DNA of 25,906 nt, taken from positions 1 to 25,906 of IMG/VR virus record IMGVR_UViG_3300003650_000123. One strand, 5' to 3'. This DNA is from a virus. The notes beneath the pieces were generated by a model. That model did no database searches. It was not told the origin of the DNA and worked only from the letters and a program-made list of their open reading frames with translations. Shown one piece after another: positions 1 to 25,906 of this stretch (position 1 is the stretch's first letter; every line of letters begins with the position of its first letter). A program made the translations under genes and the position numbers.

Positions 1-1608
1 ATTGTGGGTGAGCCGGGGACAGGAAAAACAGCAATTGCCGAAGGCCTTGCAAAGCGTATTGTAGATGGTGAGGTTCCCCCGCTCTTACAAAACAAGACTG
101 TCTATAGTCTAAGTATTGGTGACTTGATTGCCGGAACACGGTACAGAGGCGATTTCGAAGAACGCCTAAAACTAGTACTAAAAACTCTTGAGGATAACCC
201 GGACAGTATTTTGTTTATTGATGAAATACACATGATTATGGGAGCCGGTTCAGCTGGCAGCAGTAGCGTAGATGTCGCTAATATGATTAAGCCTGTCCTA
301 GGAAAGGGTAGACTGTTAACAATTGGCGCGACTACTCCCGACGAATTCGCAAGCACGTTTGAAAAGGATCGTGCGTTGATGCGACGATTTGCGAGATTAG
401 ATATCGAGGAGACATCGGTCGAAGACACTAAACGAATTTTGCATGGCTTGAAAGAGCAATACGAAACTTTCCACGTTGTTACTTATGCCGAGGGTGTAAT
501 CGATAAGTTGGTCGACTTGACCGATCGGTACATTAAGAATAAATATTTCCCCGATAAGGCCTTAGACATCATGGATGCGGCTGGTGCTACGGTTAAGTTG
601 CGTGGAGAGGCGATCGTTTATATTGAGGATGTTACTGCTGTACTTAGCATCGTATCTAAAATCAACGAGAACATGATCGATATTGAAAAGAATGACAGCT
701 TTAAGAGTTTAGATACTCGCATCAAGAGTCAAGTATTTGGTCAAGATACCGCAATAGACGCTATTGTAGAAAACATCTTAGTGTCTAAAGCAGGATTGCG
801 CGAACGCAATAAGCCAATTGGTTGCTATTTATTTGTAGGTCCCACCGGAACAGGAAAGACAGAAACTGCGCGGGCTCTTGCAAAGGCAATGGACGCAACC
901 TTAGTTAAATTCGATATGTCGGAGTATCAAGAGCGACATAGTGTCAGCAAGCTGATTGGCGCACCTCCCGGATACGTTGGTCACGCTGAAGGCAGGGGTG
1001 GCCAAGGACAACTTCTGGCAGCGGTGGAAAGCTCACCCAATTGTGTTTTACTTCTTGACGAGATCGAAAAAGCTGATCAAGCTGTATTGCAATTACTGTT
1101 ACAGGTAATGGACGATGGCAAGTTGACCGGGGCTACTGGGAAGACTGTGGACTTCACTAACGTGGTGTTGCTAATGACCTCTAACTTAGGTGCTAGCGAT
1201 GGTGAGAAGTTGAGGATTGGTTTTGGTGATCAAAATAAGGACGGAGAAGTAACAAAAGCAGTAAGCAAGTTCTTTAGCCCAGAGTTCCGGAACAGACTTG
1301 ATGCTACAATAACATTTAACAAGCTATCACCCGAGCTTATGTTGAGGATTGTTGATAGATTGGTAGACGAAACTAACAGCCTCCTAAAAGATAATGAATC
1401 GGGCGTGACTATAATGCTAGATGATTCAGCCAAAACTAAGCTCGCTAAAGATGGGTATGAGCCCGCAATGGGTGCGAGACCGTTAAAGCGAGTATTTGAG
1501 AATGATATCAAGAAACCGCTCAGTAAGAAAATACTATTTGATGGCTTGAAGGATTGCAGTGTTATTATTACTGCTACTGAGTCGGGGTATACCTTTGACA
1601 AATCCTAG
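1..1608 (+). CDS. clpA: ClpA-type AAA+ protein unfoldase, 5'-partial
   Basis: ATP-driven unfoldase that would feed proteins to a ClpP protease in the cytoplasm. The reading frame is open from base 1 and enters directly at the first Walker A (GEPGTGKT), so the N-terminal domain lies upstream of the window. The first AAA domain has Walker B (LFIDEIH, about residues 70-76). The second has Walker A GPTGTGKT (near residue 278), Walker B LLLDEIEK, and the C-terminal signature GARPLKRV. The long coiled-coil middle domain of ClpB is absent, which points to ClpA or ClpC rather than a disaggregase. An IGF tripeptide (RIGFGDQ, near residue 400) sits where ClpP-binding loops lie in ClpA/ClpX, so interaction with host ClpP is plausible. 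No clpP is seen in the window. The gene is followed by a late-promoter-like element and a putative virion gene. Confidence 0.9.
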
Positions 1609-1615
1609 ATTAAAA

Positions 1616-1624
1616 GATAAATAC
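1616..1624 (+). promoter_or_regulatory. T4-type late promoter element (GATAAATAC)
   Basis: ATAAATA at 1617-1623 lies in the short gap after clpA, 21 bases before the ATG at 1645. T4-type phages use (N/T)ATAAATA as the only conserved late-promoter element. A TTGACA lies 16 bases upstream (1595-1600), but it is inside the clpA coding sequence and the -10 match is poor, so the late reading is preferred. Confidence 0.55.
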
Positions 1625-1644
1625 AAGCATGAATAGGAACTATT

Positions 1645-2064
1645 ATGACAATTAACCGCCGATCAATTACTCTTATGAGCTCTTCGAGTGACCAGATGCA
1701 TCTCACGAGCACCGCAGCTAAGGCCGACAGCTATTATGGCTATACCGACGGCTTACAAACGATACAGGTTATCTATTCGAATTTTGAAGGGCGTGTAAGA
1801 ATTCAAGCAACCCTTAGCTTAGAACCCACAGAGAACGATTGGTTTAATTTAGTGCCAATTACTATTGCCGGCACTGCCTTTCACCCTAACGGATACGTTG
1901 AATTCGGCGAGGGCGAGGACGAGGTAGCTAACGGTTCGGAAGCGTACACAGTACAGGGAAATTTTGCATTCCTCCGAGTCGTTATGGACAGGGCTGAAGT
2001 TGGTGATGGTGAGACGTACGACGCGTCTTACGGTCAAATTATGCAAGTTCTGATGTCCACATAG
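1645..2064 (+). CDS. Hypothetical, putative virion-associated protein
   Basis: A 139-residue protein that I cannot assign to a named family. It has no signal peptide or membrane segment. The body alternates short hydrophobic strands with polar turns (for example IQATLSLEPTENDWFNLVP), suggesting an all-beta fold of the kind common in phage tail, fibre or decoration proteins. The start is supported by AGGA at 1635-1638, six bases before the ATG. It stands alone behind a late-promoter-like ATAAATA, and in T4-type phages late genes are mainly virion and lysis genes; the structural role is inferred only from that and the beta-rich look. Downstream is a 73-base gap containing a sigma70-type promoter for the next gene. 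Confidence 0.6.
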   Translation: MTINRRSITLMSSSSDQMHLTSTAAKADSYYGYTDGLQTIQVIYSNFEGRVRIQATLSLEPTENDWFNLVPITIAGTAFHPNGYVEFGEGEDEVANGSEAYTVQGNFAFLRVVMDRAEVGDGETYDASYGQIMQVLMST

Positions 2065-2103
2065 TTTCCACGTAAGTAACTGATTTACCTCTAATTTCTA
2101 TAC

Positions 2104-2131
2104 TTGACTTATACACCAAGTGTGCTATAAT
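2104..2131 (+). promoter_or_regulatory. Sigma70-type promoter, extended -10
   Basis: TTGACT at 2104-2109 and TATAAT at 2126-2131 are separated by 16 bases, with TGC just before the -10 (extended -10). The predicted transcription start, about seven bases past the -10, coincides with the A of the ATG at 2138, so the transcript may be leaderless. Confidence 0.8.
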
Positions 2132-2137
2132 ATTAGT

Positions 2138-2746
2138 ATGACCAAAAAACAAAAGATAATAATTACTGATTGCGACGGCGTACTTACGAACTGGGAATTC
2201 GCATTCCACACACAGATGCAATATCACGGCCATATCACAACTACCGGATACAAGGAGTATTACGATATAACGAAGCAATATCAAATCAGCGAAGGTATGA
2301 AATACATAAAAGAATTTAATGCCAGTGCCGCGATCGGATTCCTCCCTCCTCACCGAGATGCCCAATACTATGTCGCCCAATACTACGTCAAGTTACTAAA
2401 CGAAAAGCATGGCTATCGTTTCGTAGTTTTGACATCGTTTGGCACCGAACCCCACGCAGTAGAACTCCGTAAGCGCAATCTTGTCAAATTGTTTGGTGAT
2501 ATTTTTGATGATATCATCTGTATAGAAACTACTGAAACAAAAGAAGAAAAGTTAGCAGATCTATACAAAAAGTATGGAAACGCTAAGTGGATAGAAGATC
2601 ATCCTGTCAACGTTGACTTGGGTATTGCTGCTGGGTTTGACGGTTTGTTGATGGAACACAAACATAATTTGGATTACGCTGGAAACGCAACCGTTGTAAA
2701 AAATTGGGAAGAGATTTACAACATAATAGTGGAGGATGAGAAATGA
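2138..2746 (+). CDS. HAD-superfamily phosphatase / 5'-nucleotidase-like
   Basis: A 202-residue haloacid-dehalogenase-type hydrolase. Motif I is DCDGVL (residues 11-16; D11 nucleophile, D13 general acid/base). Motif II is probably VLTSFG, and the acidic motif IV is in WIEDHPVN. HAD phosphatases of this size in T4-type phages usually dephosphorylate deoxynucleotides, but the substrate cannot be read from the sequence. The frame is open further upstream to a GTG at 2120, but that would overlap the promoter -10. The ATG at 2138 lies seven bases past the -10 and has no Shine-Dalgarno sequence, so translation may begin on a leaderless mRNA. It overlaps the next gene by ATGA. Confidence 0.75.
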   Translation: MTKKQKIIITDCDGVLTNWEFAFHTQMQYHGHITTTGYKEYYDITKQYQISEGMKYIKEFNASAAIGFLPPHRDAQYYVAQYYVKLLNEKHGYRFVVLTSFGTEPHAVELRKRNLVKLFGDIFDDIICIETTETKEEKLADLYKKYGNAKWIEDHPVNVDLGIAAGFDGLLMEHKHNLDYAGNATVVKNWEEIYNIIVEDEK

Positions 2747-2970
2747 CTTTAACAGGAACGCATGAAAAATCCGGTATGATAGAGATTACCGACTGTTCAG
2801 ATGAAGGTGGTAGTGTAGTACGGTGCTATCCGGACGGAAGGATTGAGTTGTTTCACGTTCCGCATCGCGGATGGGCTGAGCGTCCCCATGGTAACTATCC
2901 AACAATCTGTGCTGCCTTTGCAGAAGGGGAGAAATGGAAGTGGGTCTACCCAGCGGAGAAAGTGAAATGA
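2743..2970 (+). CDS. Hypothetical small protein
   Basis: A 75-residue protein of unknown function, with no recognised family, signal peptide or membrane segment. It is rich in Gly, Trp and acidic residues, with a central run reading YPDGRIELFHVP that looks like beta-hairpin structure. The gene is locked into an operon: its ATG overlaps the stop of the HAD gene (ATGA at 2743-2746), a GGAGG lies just upstream, and its stop overlaps the ATG of the next HAD gene at 2967. Translational coupling with the two HAD genes is therefore likely, but gives no specific function. Confidence 0.65.
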   Translation: MTLTGTHEKSGMIEITDCSDEGGSVVRCYPDGRIELFHVPHRGWAERPHGNYPTICAAFAEGEKWKWVYPAEKVK

Positions 2971-4013
2971 AAATAATATTTTTAGATATTGATGGAGTAA
3001 TAGCTACACCAACCGCTTCTCTAGCATTCAATAAGAAGCTCTGGTGTATTGATCCTACCTTGGCTCGATTACTCCGACGAATATGTATCGAGTGCGATGC
3101 AAAGCTTGTAATATCTTCGACATGGAGGAACGGTGGTCACAATTGGAACACTTTTGCGGACTTACTTACCGCCTATAACTTGGAACACCAATTAGTACAT
3201 GAACTAGAATTTTGGAAAACTCCATCGTATCTTAAGGACAATAAAGACGGTCGCGGTGGTGAAATTAACAAATTTGTACACATACTCGAACAATGCAAGG
3301 CAAGCGTTATGAAATTTAAAACTATCGACGTGGTATCGGCGGCTTGCGCAATACATCGTATTAATGGTGGTTACTATAAAACTGACAGTGAACATTGGCC
3401 TAACACGGGTAGACCACAGTGGTCTAATCGAAGACTACTAAATGAACATTTGGCAATAGACGGTAATTTTGAGAAAGTGATCATTACTGACGAGGATACA
3501 GAACTTGCAGAGAAAGCTATTAATTACCTTAAAGGCTTGGGTTTAAAACGGTTTGAGCGAGATCTTTCTGATTATGAATCTAAAGTATTAAAACTTGTCG
3601 CGTACGAAGATTTCGATCTCTCGACAAATTACGTGGGCATTGCTGCCTCACTTCCTAGCATGTATTTGACGAGCTCAGTAGCAGATGCCTGGTTCTACAA
3701 GGAACAAGAGATAGGACCAAAAAGTCAGTTCGTAGGGGTAGTGGGCAACAGACACACTGCTACGGTAACGGTAGAGTTTGTAAAACAGTTCTCTCAGTTT
3801 GAAAAATATTTAACTTGTTGTACCGATCAAGACAACAATATTGTAAAATTCTTCGGGGCAGCCGAGATGCCTGTAGGTGAGAAATTTGTAGTATCGGGCA
3901 ACGTGAAGCCACACGAAATAAATGGGTACACGGGGTACAAAGATACACTCTTAAATAGAATCAAATTTCCGCCAGCACTGAATCACTTGACTTCACTAGA
4001 AATCGTTGTATAA
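2967..4013 (+). CDS. HAD-like domain fused to a beta-rich C-terminal domain
   Basis: A 348-residue two-part protein. The N-terminal part starts with FLDIDGVI (D7 and D9 as motif I) and has VISSTWR (48-54) as motif II and IITDEDTELA as a probable acidic motif, so a HAD-type phosphatase fold is likely. After about residue 200 the sequence changes to a beta-rich region with a phrase of the form VSGNVKPHE-YTGYKDTLLNRIK. I associate that phrase with small, possibly OB-like domains at the C-termini of several phage DNA-metabolism proteins; this link is from memory and tentative. The ATG at 2967 overlaps the preceding stop (ATGA). An upstream in-frame ATG at 2934 exists but would lie inside the previous gene. 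A sigma70-type promoter for the next segment lies in its last codons. Confidence 0.7.
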   Translation: MKIIFLDIDGVIATPTASLAFNKKLWCIDPTLARLLRRICIECDAKLVISSTWRNGGHNWNTFADLLTAYNLEHQLVHELEFWKTPSYLKDNKDGRGGEINKFVHILEQCKASVMKFKTIDVVSAACAIHRINGGYYKTDSEHWPNTGRPQWSNRRLLNEHLAIDGNFEKVIITDEDTELAEKAINYLKGLGLKRFERDLSDYESKVLKLVAYEDFDLSTNYVGIAASLPSMYLTSSVADAWFYKEQEIGPKSQFVGVVGNRHTATVTVEFVKQFSQFEKYLTCCTDQDNNIVKFFGAAEMPVGEKFVVSGNVKPHEINGYTGYKDTLLNRIKFPPALNHLTSLEIVV

Positions 4014-4014
4014 T
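3987..4014 (+). promoter_or_regulatory. Sigma70-type promoter before a captured gene fragment
   Basis: TTGACT at 3987-3992 and TATAAT at 4009-4014 with a 16-base spacer. The -35 lies in the last codons of the HAD gene. The predicted start near 4020-4021 leaves only a very short leader before the ATG at 4027. GGAG at 4015-4018 would then lie upstream of the transcript start. Confidence 0.75.
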
Positions 4015-4026
4015 GGAGTAGTTTAA

Positions 4027-4095
4027 ATGATATACAAATTACGATCAGGTTCGCCCTTGGTCACCGTTAATCCAAATGAAGGTTGCCAGTCGTGA
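4027..4095 (+). other. Short 22-codon open frame at a gene junction
   Basis: ATG at 4027 opens a 22-codon frame ending at TGA 4093-4095, placed correctly behind the promoter at 3987. The peptide begins MIYKLRSG and matches nothing I know. It overlaps the captured cytochrome/monooxygenase fragment in another frame, and its stop sits two bases before an in-frame ATG of that fragment (4097), so stop-and-restart translation is conceivable. It may be the leftover start of a displaced phage gene rather than a functional peptide. Confidence 0.3.
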
Positions 4096-5197
4096 AATGC
4101 CACCTTATGCGTACGACCAGCATATTGGTATACAAGACTTGCAAGGTGATTGGCGACTTGACCAGGAAGAAATTGATACTCTAGTAACATGGGTTAATCA
4201 AGGTTCACCGAAAGGAGATGCCTCTAGCGATGTAATTCCGCCAGTTTTACCCGATCTGGACGCATGGAAGTTCGCCGCACTTTATGGCGAGCCGGATCTT
4301 ATCCTACCATCTACTCCAATCGACATTCCTGCTAACGGTAATGACATGTGGCACCGTCCCTATGTAATGACCGGTCTTACGACTGACCGCTGCATAAAGG
4401 CAGTTCAGGTTAAGCCTAAAGGCGAGCAATCCAAAACTATTGTTCATCACGCTAACTCATCCGCTGAAGTACTTAACGAAGATGGTGGGTATGATCGGTA
4501 TAGCCAGCTTACTGAATATGCAATGGGCAAATGGGGTGAAGTGATTCCTGATGGCGTTTGTCGAACCCTGCCAGCCAATTCACGTGTTTCCTGGGATATC
4601 CATATATTCCCTGGTGGACTAGGTGCAACTGCTCCTGGTACTGCTGTTAGTGGTGGTGTAGTTGAAATTGGACTATGGTTCCATCCTGAAGGCTACGAAG
4701 AGGTTGCCGCGTATAAACAAGACCTGTCTTTGTACAGACTTGATCAGGGCGAACTAATCATTGCTCCGCACGGCTATACTATGACACAGGGCTTCAAGAG
4801 CTTTCCTTACCCGGTTCGTATCGACAGTTGGCAGCCACACGGTCATTTGCGTTTGCGTGCAGCCTCGCTGGAAATATTTTATCCAGCAACTGGCAGGACA
4901 GAGCAGATCAGCCAGGTCAGTAACTGGAGTGCGGTTTGGCATCACAGCCATATCTACGAACCAGATGTTTCCCCGCTACTTCCAGCCGGTGCTGTTCTGG
5001 TTATGAAGCAGTGGTATGACAATACCGAAGCTAACCCCAATAACCCCGACCCTGATGTCTGGGTGGTTGATGGATCACGAACGGCAGACGAAATGTCGCA
5101 TAATTGGATCGCGGTCACCCATTTGGATGAAGCCGGTTATGAGAAGATAGTCGCTGAGCGCAAAGAGAAAGCGCAACTGGCTATAGCAGCTAGGTAA
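4031..5197 (+). pseudogene. 5'-truncated cytochrome c / copper-monooxygenase-like gene (host-derived)
   Basis: The frame begins right after an in-frame TGA (4028-4030). The first residues, reading QVRPWSPLI then REMPPYAYD, align with the part of a c-type cytochrome domain just after its CxxCH haem motif; compare KGWSPMI then KRMPPGQID in the gene at 25213. Homology therefore starts before the first usable ATGs (4076, 4097), and the haem motif, redoxin domain and signal peptide are missing. The rest resembles copper type II ascorbate-dependent monooxygenase-like proteins: a His pair in VHHAN (124-125, counted from 4076), His in WFHPEG, an HxH in PHGHLR (255-257), and DNTEANPNNPDP. GC content and CTG use look higher than in neighbouring phage genes. 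Without a signal peptide it would stay in the cytoplasm, so it is probably non-functional; a new cytoplasmic role cannot be excluded. It sits behind a sigma70-type promoter and before a terminator. Confidence 0.7.
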
Positions 5198-5340: not shown

Positions 5341-5757
5341 ATGAAAAAACTACTGCTATTATTTGTCCTTATGCTATTGCCCAATTCTTATTCTTGGGGT
5401 GCTGAACCGACGGTAAATCAGGAAACACCTGTATTATCTGCTCAAGATCTTGAACTGGCTAAAGCAGCGGTAGAGGCCAAGATCAATCTTCGATGTAATA
5501 CATCAATTATTGAGATAGGTGCCGATAGTTTTTACCAATTAACATGCCAAGCAGATGTGTATGGTATCATGCAATTCGACGCCATAAACTCACAGGGTGC
5601 CCAGCAATTAATCACGAAAAGTATGTACACTAAAGATTCTGGCGTTTTGCTCTCGATCAACGATTGGATAATACTCGCGAGGTTCATTTCTTCCGAAGAA
5701 ATCTTAGTTTTTCAACTAATTCCAATTTCAGTGATATCGGAAATTAATCGTGTGTAG
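5341..5757 (+). CDS. Exported hypothetical protein with cleavable signal peptide
   Basis: A 138-residue protein. Residues 1-21 form a classical signal peptide: MKK, a Leu-rich core, then SWGA before AEPT. The mature part contains two Cys about 17 residues apart (RCNTS and LTCQAD) that could form a disulfide in the periplasm. The pattern Cys, Ile, aromatic-Gln-Leu, Cys, Gly recurs in the next gene, so the two look like tandem paralogues. Family and function are not recognised. A late-promoter-like element lies just upstream, so it is probably made late and acts in the envelope or at lysis, but that is inference. Its end overlaps the next frame. Confidence 0.7.
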   Translation: MKKLLLLFVLMLLPNSYSWGAEPTVNQETPVLSAQDLELAKAAVEAKINLRCNTSIIEIGADSFYQLTCQADVYGIMQFDAINSQGAQQLITKSMYTKDSGVLLSINDWIILARFISSEEILVFQLIPISVISEINRV

Positions 5758-7825: not shown

Positions 7826-8089
7826 ATGAGTTTTAATCGTGTTTTTAACGCGGAAGAGGTTGCACGTCTAAAAAAACTGATCGAGGAGGGATGTCAAGTT
7901 TCATACGAACTAGATTCTCTAAAAGAAGGATTGCGTGATACAGTTAAAGCAATCGCAGAAGAGATGGACCTTAAACCAGCCATCTTGAACAAGGCAATTA
8001 GCGTTGCGCATAAAGCAAAATTCCAAGACGCTTACGATGATTTCGATGCGCTAGAAACTATTCTCGAAGCTGTCGGAAAGACGATGTAA
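7826..8089 (+). CDS. dsbA: DsbA-like small DNA-binding protein (T4 type)
   Basis: An 87-residue, mostly helical protein. The pattern (ELDSLKEGLRDTVKAIAEEMDLKPAILNKAISVAHKAKF, read here in pieces) resembles T4 DsbA, a small double-stranded DNA-binding protein linked to late transcription. This refers to the T4 DNA-binding protein, not to the thiol oxidoreductase, and there is no CxxC. Its length matches T4 DsbA (about 89 residues). It is the first gene behind a strong sigma70-type promoter and abuts the DNA polymerase gene with no gap. Identification rests on remembered similarity and remains moderate; other short helical phage proteins could look alike. Confidence 0.55.
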   Translation: MSFNRVFNAEEVARLKKLIEEGCQVSYELDSLKEGLRDTVKAIAEEMDLKPAILNKAISVAHKAKFQDAYDDFDALETILEAVGKTM

Positions 8090-10420
8090 GTGTGTTATGT
8101 CGACGCATTTTATAATAAAAATAAGGACATCGTCCAGGTAGTCGAACGGGTCGATGGTAAACGAATAATTAGGGAATTTCGTCCCGAGTATAATTTCTTT
8201 TACCGCGATCCCAAAGGCAAACATCGAAGTATTCACGGTGATCGTGTTACTGAGCTGCGTTGCAAGAACGAAAATGATTTTAAGAAGCACGTTGCGTTCA
8301 ATAAGCACAGCGGGCTTTTTGAGAGTGACGTTAGGCCTGTTAATAAAACTTTAGCCAAGCACTATCTTGGTGTAGATCCTCCAGACCTACATAATGCCTT
8401 TTTTGACATCGAAGTCAGTTTTGATCCGTTGCGTGGCTACAGCTCTCCCGAAGAGGCATTTATGCCCATCACTGCTATTGGGGTGTACCTGCAATGGTTA
8501 GATACAATGATCTGTTTAGCGGTTCCTCCTAAGAAGCTAACCTGGGAGCAGGCTAACGAAATTGCTGCACAGATGCCCGAGGTCGTTTTATTTCGCACAG
8601 AAGCTGAAATGCTCGCTGCATTCATAGATGTGATTGACGATGCTGATATACTAAGCGGGTGGAACAGTGAAGGGTACGATATACCGTATACCGTTAATAG
8701 GATTGTCCGAACGCTAGGTAAAGAAGCAACTCGCAAGCTATGTTTATTCGACCAATTCCCACCTGTTCGAACTTATGAAAGTCACGGTGCTGAACGTAAA
8801 ACTTACGATTTGATTGGGCGGGTGCATCTTGACTATATGGACTTGTACAAGAAATATAACTATGAAGAACGACACACTTACCGATTAGACTATATTGGTG
8901 AAATGGAGATAGGCGAGAAGAAAGTCGCATACGAAGGTAGTCTAGATAGGCTTTATAATTACGACTTTAAGAAGTTCTTAGAGTACAATATACAAGACGT
9001 AATGCTATTAGACAAACTCGATAAGAAACTTAGGTTTATTAACTTGGCGAATCTAATTGCTCACGAAAATACAGTACTTCTCCCTGTTACTATGGGCGCA
9101 GTCGCGACCACCGAACAAGCGATCATAAATGAGGCTCACCGTCGAGGTATGGTAGTTCCTGACCGTAAACGAAACGTATCTGATCACGAGAGTGCTGCTG
9201 GTGCATACGTTGCATTTCCAAAGAAAGGATTTCATAAATGGGTGGGTAGCTCGGACTTAAATAGTCTATACCCCAGTGTCTTCCGTGCGCTCAATATGTC
9301 AAATGAAACAATGGTAGCGCAAATTAATCTTGAATATACTGATGCTGAGATTAGTAGCAAAATGGAAGGTACATGGGTTAATCCCGAGAGTGGAAAAACA
9401 TGTAAAAAAATGGCATTCGCTGAGGCGTGGAGCGGTAAGTTCGGTACAAATGAATTCGAAGCTGTGATGAGGAAAGATGTAAATATACCACTACGTCTGG
9501 AAATGGTTGATCGCGATACTTTCACAAATACAGTAATTGATACAAATGGTGCTGAAATATATAACCTAGTATTCAACAGTGGACAACCTTGGAACATTAG
9601 CGCAAATGGCACTATTTTTAGAACTGATGAGATAGGAGTTATTCCGGGTTTGCTCGAACGCTGGTACGCTGAGCGGCAAGATATGCAGGCCAATAAAAAG
9701 AAAGCTACCACTGTTGCAGATATAGATTACTGGGATAAACGGCAGCTTATTAAAAAGATTAATTTAAATTCACTTTATGGCGCCTTGTTGAATAATGGGT
9801 GCAGATTTTACGACAAGCGTATAGGTCAATCTACTACACTTACAGGTAGGCGTATTACGCGCCATATGGCAGCGGAAACGAATCGAATGTTTACTGGAGA
9901 CTACAACCACGAGGGTAAGTGTATCATATATGGAGATACCGATTCCTGTTTTTTCTCAGCGGTTCCTATTTTAGAAGAAGGGCAGGAGCTAGATGTCGAC
10001 AGCGCGATCAAATTATACGACTATGTATGCGATGAGGTTAACAACACGTTCCCGTCGTTCTTAAAACAAGAATTTAACATCCCACTGTCAGTTGGAAAAG
10101 TGATGCAAGCCGGGCGAGAAGTAGTAGGCAAATCTGCGTTATTTAATACCAAGAAGCGTTATGCTATTCTTATGGTTGACAAGGAGGGCAAGAGATATCC
10201 GGATGGTAAATTAAAAGTTATGGGACTTGATATAAGGCGCTCGGATACTCCGGTCTTTATTCAAAACTTTTTGGAAGAGATTTTGCTGGATTGTCTAGAA
10301 GGAGAACCTGAGCAATCCGTTATCGATAAGATTAAAGAATACAAAAAAGAATTTAGCAACATGGATGCCTGGAAGAAGGGAATGCCTAAAGCTGTTAATA
10401 AATGTCTTTTCATCAACTGA
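8090..10420 (+). CDS. 43: Family B DNA polymerase (T4 gp43-like), C-terminally truncated
   Basis: Replicative DNA polymerase with 3'-5' proofreading. Exonuclease motifs: DIE (106-108), GWNSEGYDIPY (190-200), YNIQD (299-303). Polymerase motifs: SDLNSLYPS (388-396), KKINLNSLYG (555-564), YGDTDS (614-619). The N-terminus aligns with that of T4 gp43, supporting the GTG start at 8090 right after the DsbA-like stop; GGAAAG lies upstream. At 776 residues it is about 120 shorter than gp43. Homology runs through KLKVMGLDIRRSDTPVF and stops after GMPKAVNK, then a few out-of-place residues precede the stop. Much of the thumb and the C-terminal clamp-binding tail are missing. The last bases overlap a dehydrogenase fragment in another frame. 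Either the gene was truncated by a deletion or insertion, the rest is encoded elsewhere, or this is an assembly join. Confidence 0.9.
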   Translation: MCYVDAFYNKNKDIVQVVERVDGKRIIREFRPEYNFFYRDPKGKHRSIHGDRVTELRCKNENDFKKHVAFNKHSGLFESDVRPVNKTLAKHYLGVDPPDLHNAFFDIEVSFDPLRGYSSPEEAFMPITAIGVYLQWLDTMICLAVPPKKLTWEQANEIAAQMPEVVLFRTEAEMLAAFIDVIDDADILSGWNSEGYDIPYTVNRIVRTLGKEATRKLCLFDQFPPVRTYESHGAERKTYDLIGRVHLDYMDLYKKYNYEERHTYRLDYIGEMEIGEKKVAYEGSLDRLYNYDFKKFLEYNIQDVMLLDKLDKKLRFINLANLIAHENTVLLPVTMGAVATTEQAIINEAHRRGMVVPDRKRNVSDHESAAGAYVAFPKKGFHKWVGSSDLNSLYPSVFRALNMSNETMVAQINLEYTDAEISSKMEGTWVNPESGKTCKKMAFAEAWSGKFGTNEFEAVMRKDVNIPLRLEMVDRDTFTNTVIDTNGAEIYNLVFNSGQPWNISANGTIFRTDEIGVIPGLLERWYAERQDMQANKKKATTVADIDYWDKRQLIKKINLNSLYGALLNNGCRFYDKRIGQSTTLTGRRITRHMAAETNRMFTGDYNHEGKCIIYGDTDSCFFSAVPILEEGQELDVDSAIKLYDYVCDEVNNTFPSFLKQEFNIPLSVGKVMQAGREVVGKSALFNTKKRYAILMVDKEGKRYPDGKLKVMGLDIRRSDTPVFIQNFLEEILLDCLEGEPEQSVIDKIKEYKKEFSNMDAWKKGMPKAVNKCLFIN

Positions 10421-10913
10421 TGAAATAATCGGTATGAGTAGGACGAACGGATACAATATATCCGACACCGACGCTATTATTCACATCGCCAAGGATTGCG
10501 ATGTTTTTATCAATAATGCATATTTAGGACCTAACCAAACGATCCTCTTTGCTGCGATGCTAGCGGAGTGGTTTGACGACAATAATAAGACCATAGTTAA
10601 TATTAATAGCAGAGCAAGGTATGACAATAGAATTGATAGGGATTATAATATACAAAAAAAGAGCCTATATAATGCAGCGGTGCTAGTCGCAAACGACTAT
10701 CGGAGAAAATGCCGAGTCATTAACCTTTCCCCTGGCTACATAAGTACCGACAGAATAGTAAATGCTGTAACAAATGTATCGAAAGATAAAATGCTAACGC
10801 CCGTTCAATTTGCTGAAATGGTAAAATGGACGATTAATCAACCACAAAATGTCGAAATAGCTGAATTATCCGTTTGGATAAATATGGCATTCGATACACC
10901 TACCAACCCATAA
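10404..10913 (+). pseudogene. Short-chain dehydrogenase fragment lacking its N-terminus
   Basis: The frame carries the second half of a short-chain dehydrogenase/reductase: CDVFINNAYLG (NNA motif), a catalytic-type YxxxK in YNIQK, and VINLSPGYISTDR. The glycine-rich TGxxxGxG cofactor motif that should start the fold is absent. Recognisable sequence (VFSSTDEIIGMSR) begins at about 10404, where the DNA polymerase homology ends. The frame is open back to an ATG at 10365 inside the polymerase, but that part is out-of-frame polymerase sequence. The first internal ATG is 10434, with no clear ribosome binding site. As it stands it could not bind NAD(P) normally, so it is called broken. Its substrate is unknown. 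Confidence 0.65.
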
Positions 10914-10929
10914 ATCTAAAATCATTTGC

Positions 10930-10957
10930 TTGACAAAAACTAAATATAGTGTATACT
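10930..10957 (+). promoter_or_regulatory. Sigma70-type promoter of the clamp gene
   Basis: TTGACA at 10930-10935, 16-base spacer, TATACT at 10952-10957. Transcription would start near 10964, upstream of GGAG at 10976-10979 and the ATG at 10991. Confidence 0.8.
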
Positions 10958-10990
10958 GTATATTGTAAAAACATTGGAGATTACGAACAC

Positions 10991-11740
10991 ATGACACAAC
11001 TTAAAGACACACTTAAAGACATCCTCAAACACACCCACGGCCTAGGTATATTTGAAATGGTGCGAATTACTGGCACCAAAGAATCTACTGGGGTCGAAAC
11101 TGTCGACGCGAACAAAACAGTAATTATGAAGGCAGTAACCAACAAACCGGTTCCCGAATTTATAGATTCGGTTATCGGTCTTAGGGTACTCGGCGTATTA
11201 GACGGGTATTTGAAGTTTCACGGGTTCGATACTGATGGTGGATCACTATCAATTACTACACAAGACCGAAACGGCGTAGTAACACCATTTGGTGCGGTAT
11301 TTAAATCTAAAGATGGGACGCTAGGCGATTATCGTTTTGCCATCGGTGCAGTATTAGACCAACAAATGGCATCTATCGATTTTAAGGGGGCAACTTACAA
11401 AGTAGAGATAGTGCCTACTCCTGTCAACATCACAGACCTTGGTTGGTTTAACTCCACGTTAAGCTTGACTGATATGACGTTTACTCCTAGGACTAATGGG
11501 ACAACGTTGACTTTCGACGTTGGTGATGGATCTAGTGATAGTGCCAAGATTGTTATTAACAATAACATAACTGGCTCGCTTAGTACTGAGCGACAATGGC
11601 CTCTTGATATTGTATTAAAAATCTTAAAATTGAGCAACACTAGCAGTAGTTGCGTACTAAGCATAAATGATAAATTAATGCAGATTAAAATATCTAGCGG
11701 GCTAGGCGAGTACACTTACCTAATTCCACCTAAACAATAA
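10991..11740 (+). CDS. 45: Probable DNA sliding clamp (gp45-like)
   Basis: A 249-residue protein that would form the ring-shaped processivity factor for the DNA polymerase; in T4 it is also a late-transcription activator. It starts with a short helix (LKDTLKDILKHTH), as gp45 does. It has two beta-rich halves and ends with WPLDIVLKILKLS, a short strand and GLGEYTYLIPP, the kind of ending I associate with phage clamps. It is close to gp45 in length (228). Similarity is remote and inferred from pattern and from its place after the polymerase. ATG 10991 is chosen over the open frame from 10949 because that start would overlap the promoter -10, while GGAG lies well placed before 10991. Confidence 0.6.
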   Translation: MTQLKDTLKDILKHTHGLGIFEMVRITGTKESTGVETVDANKTVIMKAVTNKPVPEFIDSVIGLRVLGVLDGYLKFHGFDTDGGSLSITTQDRNGVVTPFGAVFKSKDGTLGDYRFAIGAVLDQQMASIDFKGATYKVEIVPTPVNITDLGWFNSTLSLTDMTFTPRTNGTTLTFDVGDGSSDSAKIVINNNITGSLSTERQWPLDIVLKILKLSNTSSSCVLSINDKLMQIKISSGLGEYTYLIPPKQ

Positions 11741-19502: not shown

Positions 19503-19943
19503 GTGGAAGCACATCGTCGTAAAAGATTATCAATAATCGTTTTTATCGCTGCTGGTTTATCCGTCGCGATAGGCCTGGCATTGTTTGCCCTGCGGCAGAA
19601 TATCAGTTTATTTTTCACTCCCACGCAAATTGCCATGGGCGAAGTTTCCAGTGGGCAACGCATTCGTGTTGGCGGTATGGTGAAAGAGGGTTCGGTGCAG
19701 AGTCAGGGAGATTCACTGGAAGTGCGCTTCATGGCCACTGATTACGCCAATGATGTGCCAATACATTACGTAGGCATACTGCCGGACTTGTTTCGCGAAG
19801 GGCAGGGCATAGTCGTGGAGGGTAGCGTGGATGGCAGTGGTATATTCCAGGCTTCACGAGTGCTGGCCAAGCATGACGAAAATTATATGTCCCCCGAAGT
19901 CAAGGCGGCGCTCGGTGCTGCACAGCGTTCTATAAATAATTAA
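19503..19943 (+). CDS. ccmE: Cytochrome c maturation haem chaperone CcmE
   Basis: CcmE carries haem covalently in the periplasm and hands it to CcmF/H for attachment to c-type cytochromes. The 146-residue protein is complete: a short basic N-terminus (HRRKRL), one membrane anchor (about 10-30), then a beta-barrel domain with [11 protein letters not shown] and [22 protein letters not shown] carries the haem-binding His (H124) and Tyr (Y128) with the spacing of E. coli CcmE H130/Y134. GTG 19503 directly follows the queE stop; GGGGA at 19493-19497 serves as binding site. Composition is more GC-rich than its neighbours and CTG is about half of the Leu codons, which suggests recent capture from a host. 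No other ccm genes are visible, so it would have to work with the host CcmABCD and CcmFH. Confidence 0.93.
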
Positions 19944-25212: not shown

Positions 25213-25906
25213 ATGAAAAACTTAAGTTTATTTTTGATAGTAAGTATTATGGTTTTGGTAGTGCCGAGCGCACTTGCCCAAACTAAAGTGGGAGACTTCT
25301 CACTAATCGATCAGGCTGGGGTATTCCACCAAATGGGTCGATACAACGATAACGAGAACATAGTAATCCTATATCCTGATGCAGAATTCCAATCGACAAT
25401 GGATCGCTTGACCCTAAAGTATGCGGATACTGTAACACAGTTTTTTATGATTACTACTGACGTTGGCGGGGAAGTATTAGGCTCAGTCCCCACGTTAGTA
25501 GATGATACAGGCGTAATAACCCAAGCGTTGGGAATTACACATAAAGGCGATGCTGTACTATTTAATCCAACGTCTTTTACTGTAACCGAGTTAGTAGAAG
25601 GCATGGGTGACATGCTAGCGTTCGCTACCGTCCCAGAAGTAAATTACACAGTTGATGTTGCCCCTTTTATTGCTGAAAATTGCGCAGCTTGTCACCGAGC
25701 AGGTGGCATTGCTCCTTTTGCATTAAATAGCAGTGCAATGGTCAAAGGCTGGTCGCCGATGATTCGTGAGGTCTTAATGACCAAGCGTATGCCTCCCGGA
25801 CAGATCGATCCGCACGTTGGCGATGGTTTTACTAATAGCAGAACGGTGGCGGTGGCAGACTTACAAAAAGTAATTAAGTGGATAGAAGATGGAGCAAACC
25901 TCAATG
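25213..25906 (+). CDS. Exported redoxin-fold / c-type cytochrome protein, 3'-partial
   Basis: The first 231 residues are in the window. Residues 1-22 are a signal peptide (MKN, hydrophobic core, ALA before Q23). Residues 25-140 resemble a thioredoxin/AhpC-like fold (VGDFSLIDQAGVFHQ, VPTLVDDTGVITQALGI) but contain no Cys, so redox activity of this domain is unlikely. NCAACH (Cys157, Cys160, His161) is a CxxCH haem c site, followed by KGWSPMIREV and KRMPP, whose Met193 may be the second haem ligand. Bacterial relatives of this layout, as I remember them, continue into a copper type II monooxygenase-like domain like the fragment at 4031-5197. Codon use is phage-like and a late-type element precedes it, so it looks long resident and expressed late. 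Haem attachment in the periplasm would need the Ccm system, to which the phage ccmE belongs. Confidence 0.85.
   Translation, partial: MKNLSLFLIVSIMVLVVPSALAQTKVGDFSLIDQAGVFHQMGRYNDNENIVILYPDAEFQSTMDRLTLKYADTVTQFFMITTDVGGEVLGSVPTLVDDTGVITQALGITHKGDAVLFNPTSFTVTELVEGMGDMLAFATVPEVNYTVDVAPFIAENCAACHRAGGIAPFALNSSAMVKGWSPMIREVLMTKRMPPGQIDPHVGDGFTNSRTVAVADLQKVIKWIEDGANLN

Follow-up and report, generated by a model that had tools for sequence, protein, structure and literature searches.

In RB69 gp43, the family-B replicase used here as a reference, the palm ends at residue 699 and the clamp-binding peptide comprises residues 883–903 (PMC3012046). Polymerases of this type also occur in split form. The halves of the split gp43 of phage 25 co-purify with activity (PMC2988022), and MIJ3 has an intein-split PolB (PMC6892783). 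In PA5oct, MIJ3 and the sister contig described below, the polymerase is divided near motif C at an intein or homing-endonuclease site with the C-terminal piece located just downstream, and in PA5oct and the sister an endonuclease lies between the polymerase halves.

The window analyzed here, the whole 25,906-nucleotide IMG/VR virus record IMGVR_UViG_3300003650_000123, contains a polymerase frame that likewise ends early, but at a different position and next to a short-chain dehydrogenase gene that is shortened too. Very probably, the arrangement arose by one recent deletion-type junction at which ~466 bp are missing, so that the polymerase has no tail and the dehydrogenase no head. The relevant features are as follows.

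7826–8089, + strand: DsbA-like transcription regulator, a conserved neighbor upstream of the polymerase in relatives (phrog_12534, E=2.9e-18; phrog_639; 74–75% to relatives)
8090–10399, + strand: first 770 residues of a family-B (gp43-like) DNA polymerase, no intein (phrog_262, motifs, sister identity)
10399–10404, no strand: junction from polymerase to dehydrogenase homology (column-by-column register comparison with the sister contig)
10400–10420, + strand: end of the shortened polymerase ORF, made up of six codons out of register (KCLFIN, in which the K aligns with relatives) and a TGA stop (translation, alignment)
10401–10913, + strand: short-chain dehydrogenase without its first 17 residues, which include the TGxxxGIG loop (sister identity, motifs, alignments)
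10930–10957, + strand: sigma-70-like promoter before the clamp gene (TTGACA-16-TATACT, 11 of 12; similar sequence in the sister)
10949–11740, + strand: sliding clamp (72% to the sister)

The sister contig and the register switch

The sole close contig recovered in a search with the clamp protein was the 50.4-kb IMGVR_UViG_3300035698_009105, referred to here as the sister. Positions 1–14.2 kb of the window are syntenic with this contig at a DNA identity of about 73% (64–76% over most matched stretches), and most window genes that have a relative align with it over nearly their whole length. The sister polymerase ends in ...EEYFSFG and a stop codon, overlaps by ATGA with an intact dehydrogenase gene (MNIAITGHTRGIGKSIADALS...) and is followed by the clamp gene. 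At 276–4405 of the sister, motif C of the polymerase is interrupted after YGD by an apparent split intein, and a separate endonuclease ORF lies between the halves, as in MIJ3; the corresponding site in the window polymerase is uninterrupted. Degenerate patterns from either flank matched no near-identical record of the same strain in IMG/VR, no DNA-level match was present among phage GenBank records, and a scan of genome contigs with the TGT-like neighbor yielded no relative.

In the window, polymerase homology stops at 10399–10402 and short-chain dehydrogenase homology starts at 10401–10404 in a different frame. When compared column by column with the sister, positions 10385–10402 matched at 78% in the polymerase register versus 22% in the dehydrogenase register, and positions 10400–10429 matched at 50% in the dehydrogenase register, which applies from 10402, versus 30% in the polymerase register. 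Base-by-base comparison revealed a single, clean register switch at 10400–10402, where the window is a net 466 bp shorter than the sister. This loss is equivalent to ~138 C-terminal polymerase residues and 17 N-terminal dehydrogenase residues. The preliminary description had placed the end of polymerase homology near 10403 and the beginning of dehydrogenase homology at about 10404 in another frame, which agrees with this switch, and its statement that both genes lose essential parts at one point is accounted for by the one 466-bp loss. The ORFs that flank the junction are intact and free of frameshifts, and the dehydrogenase ORF is open across it for 182 codons. No repeats of at least 12 bp were found near the junction in the window, and the sister breakpoints have just a 7-mer in common. 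Simple k-mer collapse therefore is not visible, and repeat-mediated collapse was dropped as a candidate in view of the lack of a repeat of this length around the junction. No Rfam family matched an intron at the junction.

Retained and missing parts of the two proteins

The polymerase ORF (8090–10420) matched phrog_262 (E=1.6e-174) across profile positions 16–736 of 856, and all exonuclease I–III and polymerase A, B and C motifs are present: FFDIE, NSEGYDIPY, YNIQD, DLNSLYPS, KINLNSLYG and YGDTDS. The protein is 68–78% identical to sister polymerases, and its nearest named relatives are those of jumbo phages, namely Sinorhizobium phage Phosso, Pseudomonas phages PA5oct and MIJ3, Agrobacterium phage Atu_ph07 and E. 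coli phage 121Q. In translation, polymerase homology ends at ...GMPKAVNK, then CLFIN and a stop, such that the protein terminates six codons past the conserved VN without a complete thumb or the C-terminal clamp-binding tail. Sequence alignment places the break at approximately residues 786–793 of the 903-residue RB69 gp43. As this position lies between the end of the RB69 palm and the clamp-binding peptide, the start of the thumb is kept, with the remainder of the thumb and the clamp tail lost. The earlier claim that the thumb is missing thus holds for the distal thumb and the clamp tail, but not for the beginning of the domain.

Related loci that reach the break region numbered 85, among which six run off their contigs and 79 have a stop codon inside the contig and were measurable. 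All 79 extend 115–156 residues past the break, mostly ending in an aromatic clamp box (e.g., LFG, FFV or FEF). The previous estimate of about 120 lost residues is close, but slightly low for the clade, as the sister runs on for 138. A naturally short polymerase with the same end in related phages had been named in advance as the finding that would speak against an abnormal break; it occurred in 0 of the 79, and this candidate was rejected. Two further close contigs, L142 and L143, encode an 898-residue polymerase that is 68% identical to that of the window, with the clamp gene directly after it and no dehydrogenase between. At 5725–7318 of L142, a TGT-like gene that is intact in L143 occupies two overlapping frames, an apparent frameshift that is possibly an assembly error.

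Comparison of the window and sister polymerases gave pN of 0.13 and pS of 0.85, and unique residue replacements numbered 36 on the window branch versus 58 on the sister branch with G003 as the outgroup. At the sequence level there was no sign of relaxed selection or decay in the retained polymerase, which suggests that the break is very recent, is not biological, or is compensated. A tblastn search of the 25.9-kb record for the missing polymerase C-terminus produced chance-level matches only.

The dehydrogenase is 63% identical to residues 14–187 of the sister protein, and its ORF also can be opened at an ATG at 10365, inside the polymerase frame. Residues 1–17 of the sister protein (MNIAITGHTRGIGKSIA), which include TGxxxGxG, are absent. 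As described initially, the NAD-binding glycine motif is missing: the TGxxxGxG cofactor-binding loop occurs nowhere in the window dehydrogenase ORF and is present in the sister. The missing N-terminus has no copy elsewhere in the 25.9-kb record. NNAY and YxxxK (YNIQK) are kept, as expected of the active site of a classical short-chain dehydrogenase. As encoded, neither the polymerase nor the dehydrogenase is expected to function.

The clamp coding region downstream probably starts at the ATG at 10991. The clamp is 33% identical to a protein annotated as proliferating cell nuclear antigen in a PA5oct-type record and 30% identical to the Phosso protein annotated as the clamp. Further along the window, a full-length gene for bacterial-type CcmE (cytochrome c maturation) at 19503–19943 lies between phage genes and possibly is a host-derived metabolic gene; its GC content is 0.505 compared with ~0.42 around it.

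Origin of the junction

Both genes are whole and adjacent in the syntenic sister, and the flanks of the junction belong to the same lineage. One deletion explains both losses; the lost segment would cover the polymerase gene's 3′ end together with the 5′ end of the overlapping dehydrogenase gene. The abrupt change of register could also come from two different phages joined as a chimera at 10402, but this origin is very improbable: the two flanks share synteny with a single sister at similar DNA distance (68–73% identity to the left of the junction and 72–74% to the right) and GC3 is alike on either side (0.40 and 0.38). A split polymerase, in which another part of the genome encodes the C-terminal thumb and clamp tail and these act in trans, has a precedent in the active split gp43 noted above and in the polymerases of the sister, PA5oct and MIJ3, which are themselves divided by an intein or homing endonuclease. 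The retained part of the window polymerase is under constraint, and the record is a 25.9-kb fragment only. That arrangement is nonetheless hardly to be expected, since no C-terminal piece is present in the record, the break lies ~150 residues beyond the known split site of the clade, and no endonuclease, intein or intron is found there (no Rfam intron, no intein signal in the polymerase); only the shortened dehydrogenase comes next. The start of that gene was lost at the same point, which one deletion accounts for and relocation of the polymerase C-terminus does not. Supply in trans, as proposed in the preliminary description, therefore found no support, as the C-terminus is absent from the record and the split polymerases of the clade break near motif C.

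Natural viable deletion, in which the phage dispensed with the thumb and tail because it uses another polymerase or because the truncated enzyme suffices with other processivity factors, is compatible with the intact, frameshift-free ORFs on both sides and with the lack of a visible repeat at the junction. It too is very unlikely. No short polymerase occurs among the 79 measurable relatives, a conserved clamp gene is still present alongside, the distal thumb and PIP tail (RB69 residues 883–903; PMC3012046) are standard parts of the enzyme, and the cofactor loop of the dehydrogenase is lost as well with no compensation. More generally, there is little prospect that the window represents a living jumbo-type phage whose polymerase does without the distal thumb and clamp tail, whether the missing domain is dispensable or is supplied by a separate gene elsewhere.

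The junction is real in the sequence, is explained by one deletion and most likely brings no biological novelty; it does not mark a polymerase that has evolved to be thumbless. By itself, a family-B replicase with neither distal thumb nor clamp tail should not sustain replication, which points to loss by artefact or by recent deletion in a genome that is defective or in the minority. In our judgement, as distinct from a computed value, an assembly or library artefact is somewhat the better bet, and a genuine recent deletion in such a genome within the population is a possible, if distinctly less probable, source. The misjoin named as an alternative in the preliminary description is thus one of the two leading explanations.

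Besides the polymerase and dehydrogenase, two more places in the contig are exceptions to the nearly complete alignment of window genes with their relatives. A monooxygenase-like ORF at 4076–5197 lacks the first ~62–78 residues of the 447-residue sister protein, which has a signal peptide-like start and CxxCH; the homology is recognizable again from ~4031, after two stop codons, and a promoter (TTGACT-16-TATAAT) is present just upstream at 3987–4014. At 2934–4013, a HAD phosphatase of the Swiss Army Knife type stops at profile position 99 of 139 with its C-terminus missing and is fused in frame to a second gene. The junction is at ~3285–3309, and the second family is free-standing in three relatives with its own start codon. 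An ORF at 25213–25905, open at the contig end, has a CxxCH domain related, at 28–40% identity, to the N-terminal stretch that the sister monooxygenase has and the window copy lacks; the ORF possibly is a second, longer monooxygenase paralogue. The 3–5 kb cargo region is variable, and the monooxygenase and HAD junctions could be natural. Several scars in one contig make it likelier that the contig, and not the biology, is unusual. Metagenomic viral contigs can carry deletion scars that fuse neighboring genes; a single relative with synteny suffices to spot them. Were the junction fixed in a viable phage, it would mean either that a family-B replicase can dispense with its distal thumb and clamp tether or that a new split-polymerase layout exists.

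Comparison with known systems

The early end of the polymerase frame is a trait that the window shares with the split gp43 (43A/43B) of Aeromonas phages 25 and 44RR and with the intein-split PolB of MIJ3 and PA5oct. The window differs from these in that its record holds no partner gene, endonuclease or intein, the break site is another one, and the neighboring gene is shortened too. Exonuclease, palm and fingers motifs are common to the window polymerase, the gp43 replicase of T4 and RB69, and the jumbo clade (PA5oct, MIJ3, Phosso, Atu_ph07 and 121Q), but the window copy stops at RB69 position ~786–793, short of the distal thumb and clamp tail. Within the short-chain dehydrogenase family, NNAY, YxxxK and the SPGY region are shared with a short phage branch of ~160–190 residues, from which the window copy differs in its lack of the TGxxxGIG cofactor-binding loop.

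Compared with the window, the sister has the full polymerase C-terminus and an intact dehydrogenase, and its motif C carries the split intein plus endonuclease. Proximity of the polymerase to a gene for the sliding clamp is shared with PA5oct, Phosso and the close contigs, and the order DsbA-like regulator, polymerase, dehydrogenase, clamp and TGT-like gene is the same in the window and the sister, with protein identities of 62–85%.
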